Assembly (NCBI GenBank): GCA_016219175.1 | Contig: JACRCD010000039.1 | Location: forward strand, 124,001-188,000 | Direction of reading: 5' to 3' | DNA: 64,000 bases | Source of the DNA: Deltaproteobacteria bacterium | Lineage (GTDB): Bacteria > Desulfobacterota > Desulfobulbia > Desulfobulbales > SURF-16 | In this document: in pieces, positions 13,381 to 16,506 of the stretch | Layout: every line of letters starts with the position of its first letter | How positions within the stretch are numbered: position 1 is the first letter of the stretch | Notes under the pieces: generated by a model | The model's database searches: none | What the model saw: the letters and a program-made list of their open reading frames with translations, nothing else | Told to the model about the DNA's origin: nothing | Translations under genes and position numbers: made by a program

Positions 13381-16300
13381 TTAGATTACCAGGGCTAGCG
13401 GCTGCTGCAAAGCCATGTTCCTGTCCCGCGTTTCCCAGAGGGTACAGGCCTGGCGGATGCATTCACGGTTCCGGGTATATTGGCCGCAGGCAATGGTGTC
13501 CGCGGCAAGAAGCGGAACGGGTAAAATTTCTTCTGATAATTTTCCGGCGGCCCGCAAGGTTATGAACGTCTCGCGCTGACAGCACCGGCCTGCCTGCAGC
13601 AGCGAAAGTTGTTCAAGAATTTTTGCGGTAACCTGCTGGGCCGTCTGCCGTTTCCCGGGGGTCAGGGGGGTCGCCTCCAGGATCACGGAAAAGGCGATTC
13701 CCGCCCCGATCGCAGCCCCGCAGCTTCCCCAGAAACCGCATACCCCTCCCGGCACCTTGCTGCCCCGTTCAATGGCGGTGAGAATCTCTTTTCTGCCAAC
13801 CTTTCCCCCCCGGGCCCGGTAGGTGGAAAGGATGACCCCCGGCACCAGGGCGTGATGCTCCGGGCCGTGCATGGCGATGGCGGGTTGGGCCCTGATTTTT
13901 TTCATCAGGGTCAGCAGGTCTTCGATGGCCGATTCGGTGCAGATCTTTTTGATCACCGCAACCCCTTGATCCTGATGGCAGGAATCACAGACAAAATGGC
14001 CGCTGCGGCAGGAGGCGTTGGTTGCTTTCTTTTCGCCGCAGTAATGACAGACCCGTTCCCTCGCATTGGTAAAATAACACAGTTCATCGCCGCAGACCAG
14101 GCAATCGGCATGTTGCCGGCTTTGCTCCGTTGCCGTCGGACAGCAGGATGGGCCGGGAGCGTCAGAGCTTGCCGGCGGCAACCCGCAGCACCCCCCGGTC
14201 TGTTTAATATTGGTAACCTCCCCGCTTTCATTGACCACAAAGAGTGAATCATCCAGGGCTTGGGCCGCGGCCAGGGTGATTCTCGTTTTTTTACCCTTGA
14301 GCAGCAGGGTTCCGCTTTCGGTATGCACGGCGGCAAAGGGGCCGCGGTAAATAACATCAACCTCCTGGGCTTGCGCGGGCTTGAAGGCGGCAAAGGTAAG
14401 GGAATAAAAAGAGATGACGCCGATCTGCCGGTAAGGAAAGCGTTTTATCAGTTTGATGGCGGAAAAACCAGCGGCCCGCAGCATGGCCATGAGGTCTTCC
14501 TGCCGCATGGCCCCGCCCAGGCATTCACCGCGGAATTTTTCGTTGTTCTTGATGTGCGCCGGGACCTGCACATCCGTGACAATATCGGCCACAACCAGTC
14601 TGCCGCCCGGCTTCAAGACGCGGAAGGCCTCATGCAGGGTCCTTCGCTTATCAGGGCTCAAATTGATGACGCAGTTGGAAATCACCGCATCAGCCGTGCG
14701 GTCAGCAAGAGGGATGGCTTCCAGAAAGCCTTTTTGAAATTTCACATTATCATAACCCAGCTCACGAGCCACCTGTCTTTGCGAGGCGCGGGCCAGATCA
14801 AGCATCTCGTCGGTCATGTCAATGCCGAACACCCGGCCGGCCGGGCCGACCATCTTGGCCGCCTGAAAACACTCAACCCCGCTGCCGCTGCCCAGGTCAA
14901 CCAGGGTCTCTCCCGCTTTGAGTTCCGCGTCCTGCACCGGGCTGCCGCAGCCATAGGAGCGCTGTTTTGACACGGTGGGAATAAACCGGGCCTCCTGCTG
15001 CTGGAGAGCAAAGGGATTGACGATTTCTTCATTGGTCCGGATGGCGGCCCGGCCATAGAATTCCCGCACCGTGGCCTGCCCCTGGTCTCCGGACAGGGAA
15101 ACAACGCAGTTGCAATGGGTAAGCATCACCTCCTGTCCGCCCTCGGGGCAATCATAACGGACATCCCCCATGCGCAGCAGAAAACCCGCCCCGTCATCCG
15201 CCAGCGGATATTGCCCGGCCTGCCGGGCAATGAGCCAGAGGGCCATCTTATTGTAGAGTTCAACGTAGGGATCATGGCCGGCAAATTTCCCGCTGGCAAT
15301 GTAGCTGTGATCGATATCCCCGCCGCCGATCAGGAAATGCAAGGCATTTTCCTCATAGCTGCTGCCGGACAGGGTGGCGCCCCGCACCTCCTGCAATACC
15401 GGCCCGTGGCGCCAGGTATGTTCCAGACCATCAGCAAGCGAGCCGCACTTCAGGGCAGCAAGGCCCACCAGGGCGGGAGAGGGATAAACATGACCGTCCG
15501 GGCCGACGGCCAATGATTCCCAGCCGCTGTTGCTCAGGTCGTAACGAGTGCCGGGGGTGGAAAAAACCTGACTTTTGATGGTCTCCGCATTATCGATGAC
15601 CACTCCTTTTCCCGGCGCGCTTTCCAGCACCCGCCGCAGATGGGGCCAGATTTCGGCAGGGGGTATAAACTGTTCATCGCTGCCCTTGCCCCGGACAAAA
15701 TGCCAGAGCAGATGGATATTGGACAAGCCGTTATCCGCGGCAAAATCGATAATGGCCGGCAGATCCGCGATATTTTCCCGGTTAACGGCAACCGAGAGGG
15801 TGGCCTTCATGCCGATGTCGCGCAGCGCCGCGAGATTGTCCAGCAGGCGGGCAAAAGCGCCCTTGCCGCGCAATCCGTCATGGTTCTTTTCCATGCCGTC
15901 AAGACTGATCTGCAGATGAAAGCGGTCCGCTGGAAGCTGTCGCAGAAGATGACTGTTTTCCTTAAGCAGCAGCCCATTGGTCAAAACCACGGCACGCATT
16001 TGCTGATTTTGCAGCAGGCCGTGCATCATTTCCACAAAATGGGGGTAGACAAATGGCTCTCCTCCTGTAAAATAAAAAAGCGTGCAGCCGAGGGAGGCTG
16101 CTTCGGCCATGGCCTGGTCAAGCTGCTGCCTGCTTAATGACTGCGACTGGGCGGGCGAGGCGGAAAACAGACAGTGACGGCAGGAGAGATTGCATTGGTT
16201 TGTTAAGTGAAACCAGCATTCCTTCAGGGCGGCAAGCTGCAGATGGTTTCCCCGGCCGCTGTAGGGAATGGCTTCAGAGTCCTCGATCCGGGAAAAAAGA

Positions 16301-16506
16301 AGTTCCCGGGCAAACACGGCCGCCCCGGGATCATGCCCGAGAGGCACGGGGCCTGCCTCCGGCGAAAGAAGATGCCTGGCGTTTTGCAGGAGAATATCGG
16401 CCTTGTCCCCTGCCACAAACCAGTCCGGTTTGCGGGGGTTGATATAAATCGGCAGGCCGTTGCTATCAAAACGCTGCCAGTATTTTAATGATTGCATCGT
16501 TTTCAT
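13381..16506 (-). CDS. Radical SAM / ArsM-like methyltransferase / DUF5714 three-domain fusion
   Basis: A single 1041-residue frame with three modules. Residues about 95-300 are a radical SAM domain: CNLSCRHC (C105, C109, C112) and TGGEP at 147-151, with the SLDG strand. Residues about 480-720 are a SAM-dependent methyltransferase close to arsenite methyltransferase ArsM: VDLGSGSGVECF, GIDMTDEM and ISNCVINLSPDK. The three arsenic-binding cysteines of ArsM appear at C520 (YGCGSP), C612 (SNCVIN) and C662 (ECLGGA). CC pairs follow at 773-774 and 788-789. Residues about 800-1025 match the DUF5714 type, with CLVCG, CHYCGE, CDSCH and the core GVCGFWGSCGAAIGAG. It is co-transcribed with mutM and diverges from rph. 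The substrate is unknown; a metalloid or a modified organic ligand are both possible. Confidence 0.8.
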   Translation of the reverse strand: MKTMQSLKYWQRFDSNGLPIYINPRKPDWFVAGDKADILLQNARHLLSPEAGPVPLGHDPGAAVFARELLFSRIEDSEAIPYSGRGNHLQLAALKECWFHLTNQCNLSCRHCLFSASPAQSQSLSRQQLDQAMAEAASLGCTLFYFTGGEPFVYPHFVEMMHGLLQNQQMRAVVLTNGLLLKENSHLLRQLPADRFHLQISLDGMEKNHDGLRGKGAFARLLDNLAALRDIGMKATLSVAVNRENIADLPAIIDFAADNGLSNIHLLWHFVRGKGSDEQFIPPAEIWPHLRRVLESAPGKGVVIDNAETIKSQVFSTPGTRYDLSNSGWESLAVGPDGHVYPSPALVGLAALKCGSLADGLEHTWRHGPVLQEVRGATLSGSSYEENALHFLIGGGDIDHSYIASGKFAGHDPYVELYNKMALWLIARQAGQYPLADDGAGFLLRMGDVRYDCPEGGQEVMLTHCNCVVSLSGDQGQATVREFYGRAAIRTNEEIVNPFALQQQEARFIPTVSKQRSYGCGSPVQDAELKAGETLVDLGSGSGVECFQAAKMVGPAGRVFGIDMTDEMLDLARASQRQVARELGYDNVKFQKGFLEAIPLADRTADAVISNCVINLSPDKRRTLHEAFRVLKPGGRLVVADIVTDVQVPAHIKNNEKFRGECLGGAMRQEDLMAMLRAAGFSAIKLIKRFPYRQIGVISFYSLTFAAFKPAQAQEVDVIYRGPFAAVHTESGTLLLKGKKTRITLAAAQALDDSLFVVNESGEVTNIKQTGGCCGLPPASSDAPGPSCCPTATEQSRQHADCLVCGDELCYFTNARERVCHYCGEKKATNASCRSGHFVCDSCHQDQGVAVIKKICTESAIEDLLTLMKKIRAQPAIAMHGPEHHALVPGVILSTYRARGGKVGRKEILTAIERGSKVPGGVCGFWGSCGAAIGAGIAFSVILEATPLTPGKRQTAQQVTAKILEQLSLLQAGRCCQRETFITLRAAGKLSEEILPVPLLAADTIACGQYTRNRECIRQACTLWETRDRNMALQQPLALVI

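Follow-up and report, generated by a model that had tools for sequence, protein, structure and literature searches.

Arsenosugar synthesis, known from cyanobacteria, is assigned to two separate enzymes, ArsM and ArsS. A division of labour between a radical SAM enzyme and ArsM is established both for ArsS and for ArsL (PMC12159101, PMC8552651). The radical SAM enzyme of arsenosugar synthesis adenosylates arsenic; in arsinothricin synthesis, a different one transfers a 3-amino-3-carboxypropyl radical (PMC12159101). Can both activities reside in one polypeptide? The window (the whole stretch of 64,000 nucleotides analysed here) carries a gene in which a radical SAM core, an ArsM-like methyltransferase and a DUF5714 domain are joined. 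The fusion probably forms organoarsenicals on a single chain and replaces the two separate enzymes, ArsM and ArsS, of arsenosugar synthesis. The replacement is most likely non-orthologous, whereby arsenic would be methylated and then joined to a SAM-derived radical, in all likelihood 5'-deoxyadenosyl. What is observed is the architecture, the invariant arsenic-type cysteines, a gene context like that of ArsS loci and a mutual exclusion between the fusion and ArsS.

The 1041-residue frame claimed by the initial annotation is real and full length, and lies on the minus strand, which had been left unstated. Profile matches confirm that all three modules are in one polypeptide, and the ten cysteines cited earlier (C105/109/112, C520/612/662, C773-774 and C788-789) are all correctly placed. 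The features are:

13381..16506, minus strand: entire fusion gene (radical SAM, ArsM-like methyltransferase and DUF5714), 1041 aa (full-length frame and domain profiles)
16237..16485, minus strand: small N-terminal domain, aa 8-90 (aligns in fold with the N-terminal part of CteB)
15739..16206, minus strand: radical SAM core, aa 101-256 (Radical_SAM profile)
16171..16194, minus strand: CX3CX2C cluster motif C105, C109, C112 (sequence and alignment)
15247..15549, minus strand: SPASM/twitch-like region, aa 320-420, with the auxiliary-cluster Cys of shorter relatives replaced (alignment, fold)
15106..15150, minus strand: linker with C453, C465 and C467, of which C467 is invariant in 78/78 homologues (alignment)
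14227..15069, minus strand: ArsM-like methyltransferase module, aa 480-760 (profile, fold)
14947..14949, minus strand: C520, equivalent of CmArsM C72 (alignment)
14671..14673, minus strand: C612, equivalent of CmArsM C174 (alignment)
14521..14523, minus strand: C662, equivalent of CmArsM C224 (alignment)
14140..14190, minus strand: CC pairs 773-774 (conserved) and 788-789 (chiefly in Desulfobulbales), within a linker modelled at low confidence (alignment, model)
13978..14103, minus strand: CXXC-rich stretch C802, C805, C820, C823, C833, C840, C843, invariant in full-length fusions (alignment)
13438..13953, minus strand: DUF5714 domain, aa 852-1023 (Pfam profile)

Pfam places Radical_SAM at residues 101-256 (E 1.2e-21) and a class I methyltransferase at 530-680, and DUF5714 (PF18978) passes its cut-off (195 bits vs 26.2). 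Invariant in the DUF5714 domain are C923, C929, C975-976 (a third CC pair of the protein), C1007, C1016, C1021 and an HGPEHH motif. With NCBIfam, the arsenite-methyltransferase profile PRK11873 covers residues 494-692 at 229 bits, below its curated cut-off of 263. The ArsS profile TIGR04167 fails, as it matches the radical SAM core only, with 62 bits vs a cut-off of 300; the CX3CX2C motif, also a criterion for ArsS, is present. No ArsL model is found among the best 25 of 97 NCBIfam matches. As the fusion misses the ArsS cut-off and is without the fourth ArsM cysteine, it is filed as neither family. The profile of MbdU (NF045648, metal-binding double selenoprotein) matches residues 768-1030 at 114.6 bits, far below its cut-off of 600, and its first 272 positions match the C-terminal 270 residues of the fusion. 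MbdU calls for two Sec codons, whereas the fusion has cysteines and its gene no in-frame TGA; the window copy is thus not a selenoprotein.

The structure prediction that had been proposed as a check recovers an ArsM fold and a SPASM-type radical SAM fold in the AlphaFold2 model (mean pLDDT 85.5, pTM 0.72). Residues 498-759 match ArsM 4fr0 (Z 28.5, 244 residues, rmsd 3.9), and the best solved folds for this module are arsenic methyltransferases. For residues 8-433 the best match is CteB, a SPASM maturase (Z 30.1, rmsd 3.5 over 398 residues); anSME (Z 28.7), ChlB, SuiB and SkfB are further top folds. The SPASM/twitch fold is present, but the auxiliary-cluster cysteines are missing in the long forms. 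DUF5714 modelled alone (pLDDT 85.8) is cysteine-rich and mainly helical; no convincing solved relative of its fold was found (best Foldseek E 0.7; best VIA Z 4.8), which is not proof of a new fold. A relationship to C_GCAxxG_C_C, seen in one protein only at E 1.1, is not claimed.

A scan of 84,980 species genomes gave 80 loci, with 43 usable full-length fusions and 35 other frames. The full-length fusions are mostly from Desulfobulbales and relatives, at 52-73% identity and in one case 39%. Most of the 35 frames, all of 900 aa or fewer, are radical SAM-methyltransferase fusions of ~730-870 aa without DUF5714, but a few are long fusions that have been split or cut. Hosts of the short fusions are Scalindua and other Planctomycetota, Nitrospirota, Acidobacteria and archaea. 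C105, C109, C112, C467, C520, C546, C612 and C662 are invariant in 78/78 homologues (43 long and 35 shorter). Homologues lacking the three ArsM cysteines, which the initial annotation had named as evidence against its reading, did not turn up, as C520, C612 and C662 are kept in every one. These three align with C72, C174 and C224 of Cyanidioschyzon merolae ArsM, which are arsenic-binding (PMC3877260). The CC pair 788-789 is less conserved (32-35 of the 43 full-length fusions) and mostly absent outside Desulfobulbales.

Of interest is the position of the fourth ArsM cysteine. N497-P498 replaces the N-terminal CC of ordinary ArsM (human AS3MT C32) in every long fusion, and this speaks against the organoarsenic reading, since the equivalent C32S mutant of AS3MT loses the first methylation (PMC3877260). 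The mutant keeps the second methylation, however, and the long-fusion domain may therefore start from methylarsenite, or a cysteine such as C467 might substitute. The radical SAM part has changed as well: most short forms have Cys at positions 328, 333, 384, 387, 393 and 415, which the long forms almost never do. With these SPASM-like cysteines gone, one clear cluster motif is left, as reported for ArsL.

How did the long and short fusions originate? They have the radical SAM and linker architecture and the invariant cysteines in common. The short ones differ in being without DUF5714, in retaining the SPASM-like cysteines and the ArsM N-terminal CC, and in a methyltransferase of another clade. 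In the methyltransferase tree the domains of the long fusions, locus L210 included, fall into a single clade (100/99) that stands weakly beside ordinary ArsM, and the short fusions are intermixed with ArsS-partner ArsM. This separate placement suggests that the two forms may have acquired their methyltransferases independently. A 426-bit score had put the window methyltransferase nearest to ArsS-partner ArsM; this was rejected, because the profile had included short fusions and the tree puts the long fusions elsewhere. Nor are stand-alone radical SAM relatives claimed as orthologues, as just two align over >250 residues, at ~23% identity.

In the window, the fusion gene is followed by Fpg, and the genes upstream, on the opposite strand, are RNase PH and Tgt (names by eye). 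These housekeeping genes are uninformative as operon partners, and no arsenic-related gene adjoins the fusion. The remark that no ars genes are adjacent thus holds for the window, but the worry it raised is answered by other genomes and by the same contig. There, ~127 kb from the fusion, overlapping genes (C9:8618-9978) encode members of TIGR04282 (G000:C9:8648-9220, 183 bits, cut-off 134) and TIGR04283 (G000:C9:9301-9957, 248.5 bits, cut-off 182). Both families carry the NCBIfam name 'arsenosugar biosynthesis glycosyltransferase', which we take to reflect gene context and not assayed reactions. The fusion gene lies outside such a cluster in the genus to which the window belongs. No ArsS over the cut-off is present in the window genome. 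A separate ArsM over its curated cut-off adjoins ArsR and an ArsP-type permease (ArsP_1). A second ArsM-like gene (G000:C44:14487-15131) has an in-frame TGA, possibly that of a selenoprotein, and the same is seen in many relatives.

Outside the window's order, TIGR04282 or TIGR04283, assigned by sequence clustering with annotated members, is found near the fusion in 8 of 22 loci. The chance expectation is ~0.5% per locus, a rough figure that assumes independence and one TIGR04282/TIGR04283 pair per 3.5 Mb. The order in L214 is TIGR04283, TIGR04282, fusion, VTT-domain protein and MerA-like oxidoreductase, and L210, L215, L220, L221 and L231 have similar clusters. The search for modules that are separate but adjacent, also put forward earlier, finds its example in L210, where DUF5714 is a gene of its own with a 4 nt overlap with the radical SAM-methyltransferase gene; TIGR04283, TIGR04282 and a VTT-domain protein belong to the same cluster. 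A VTT-domain gene adjoins the fusion in three Desulfobulbales loci (L041, L045 and L074), with a 4 nt overlap in L041 and L074. The accessory families of the fusion loci recur beside ArsS/ArsM in L194, L211, L212 and L213. Stand-alone radical SAM proteins occur in L203 and L206 with TIGR04283 and the arsenosugar-associated peroxidase-like TIGR04169 (the L206 protein scoring 109 bits, under the cut-off of 120). Canonical ArsM and ArsS are found in one frame, in opposite orders, in G451:C60 (L212, 685 aa) and G220:C1 (L211, 692 aa); these are independent fusions of the arsenosugar pair and suggest that such coupling recurs.

Among 97 relatives, the fusion is present in 52 and ArsS over the cut-off in 23, and no genome has both (12.3 expected; Fisher 3.7e-10). 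A phylum sample of 395 genomes has the fusion in 35, ArsS in 120 (119 over the cut-off) and both in one (10.6 expected; p 2.8e-5). Families are mostly all-fusion or all-ArsS, so that the p-values overstate independence and phylogeny confounds part of the distribution argument. Families f11 and f14 hold both states, yet the fusion and ArsS never occur in one genome. TIGR04282 is present in 50/52 fusion genomes, 23/23 ArsS genomes and 10/22 with neither enzyme among the 97 relatives, and several of these ten genomes are incomplete. Six with TIGR04282 and neither enzyme (G030, G065, G075, G080, G085, G092) are either incomplete or have a third enzyme; none was seen when the surroundings of L268, L269, L271 and L274 (G030, G065 and G092) were inspected by eye.

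How would such an enzyme work? Arsenic held on C520, C612 and C662 would be methylated by SAM to dimethylarsenite; alternatively, the genome's separate ArsM would supply methylarsenite as the start. Dimethylarsenite would remain on the chain or move to the radical SAM site, where addition of the 5'-deoxyadenosyl radical would give a dimethylarsinoyl-adenosine-type product, and the TIGR04282/TIGR04283 glycosyltransferases would pass this on to sugar or lipid. The cysteine-rich DUF5714 might hold, hand over or reduce trivalent arsenic. Toxic trivalent methylarsenicals would then never leave the enzyme, which would be the benefit of the fusion. The initial annotation had the radical SAM part act further on a methylated or adenosylated metalloid, and this fits the data, the chemistry being what we infer. 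Its core reading is thus supported, but the arsenosugar context, the ArsS exclusion, the lack of a fourth ArsM cysteine and the loss of SPASM-type cysteines escaped it. ArsM and ArsS of Synechocystis have in common with the fusion a methylation and a radical SAM step, as well as glycosyltransferase, VTT, MerA-like and DUF547 neighbours. The fusion differs in that its radical SAM module is not ArsS, in being one chain with an extra DUF5714, and in lacking the fourth ArsM cysteine.

Might the product be a different organoarsenical? ArsL and ArsM of arsinothricin synthesis are likewise a radical SAM enzyme and ArsM that make C-As bonds, and the long forms retain just the CX3CX2C cluster cysteines in the radical SAM part, as in ArsL (PMC8552651). 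This, together with a module that is not ArsS by profile (62 bits vs 300), is consistent with an ArsL-like transfer of 3-amino-3-carboxypropyl or some other radical group, the product not being an arsenosugar. Such a synthesis is nevertheless unlikely, as the fusion has the accessory genes of ArsS loci and its distribution is followed by that of TIGR04282, whereas the ArsL cluster consists of arsQ, arsM, arsL and four genes, none of them such glycosyltransferases (PMC8552651). ArsL and ArsM also differ in being separate genes, in the arsQ exporter and in their predicted product.

A point against the preferred reading is that, in the model comparisons, the closest solved folds of the radical SAM module are peptide maturases. 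The radical SAM and N-terminal domains could then modify a peptide or thiol substrate on which the methyltransferase and DUF5714 also act; CteB aligns from residue 8, ahead of anSME, ChlB, SuiB and SkfB, and a weak PqqD-type match is seen solely in stand-alone radical SAM relatives (E 0.005-0.1). No recurrent small gene stands out among neighbours of at least 70 aa, however, the three As-binding cysteines are invariant and the long forms no longer have the auxiliary-cluster cysteines typical of SPASM maturases, which makes a maturase quite improbable. Plain detoxification, in which arsenite is only methylated and the radical SAM and DUF5714 parts have a task in redox or with metals, would agree with the ArsM-type cysteines and fold. 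It would also agree with stand-alone DUF5714 genes, which several genomes carry near ArsR-type regulators and one near an ArsP-like permease (by eye) that is related to ArsP_1 of the window genome. Such plain detoxification is very unlikely, as a separate ArsM over the cut-off and a TGA-containing ArsM-like gene are already present in the window genome, the radical SAM cluster motif is invariant and the ArsS exclusion would be left unexplained.

Single-chain replacement of ArsM and ArsS remains the preferred reading, and its novelty most likely lies in a non-orthologous, fused route to ArsM/ArsS-type chemistry. A wider claim is made tentatively, the balance tipping slightly towards doubt: the fusion might represent an undescribed class of C-As bond-forming enzyme, non-homologous to ArsS beyond the radical SAM core. 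One chain would carry out methylation and radical alkylation, handing arsenic from thiol to thiol across its three modules, and strict anaerobes could make arsenosugars or a new organoarsenical without release of trivalent methylarsenic, DUF5714 being a new arsenic-handling fold. The genomes suggest a second, unrelated enzyme for the ArsM/ArsS job in many sulfur-cycling and other anaerobes without ArsS. If true, the list of organoarsenic producers becomes longer, the role of TIGR04282/TIGR04283 in ArsS-less genomes is explained and DUF5714 gains its first function. A search of openly accessible papers found none that mentions DUF5714 and, for arsenosugar synthesis with these families, nothing on such a fusion.

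Several neighbourhoods of related genes are also of note. Stand-alone DUF5714 genes are near ArsR-type regulators in L122, L123, L124, L126 and L130, near an ArsP-like permease in L126 and within an apparent corrinoid methyltransferase operon in L125 (all by eye). The Nitrospirota short fusions (L091-L111) have a ~493-aa gene nearby in 19 loci, mostly directly 3', whose product resembles a cobalamin-binding-type radical SAM protein (by eye). In Scalindua and relatives (L080-L089), short fusions occur with a PiT phosphate-type permease, a large GT2 and a GT87-like membrane protein (by eye), and GT2 and GT87-like genes are also beside long fusions in L224, L229 and L231. This anammox-type gene set is possibly a larger arsenic-glycolipid pathway.
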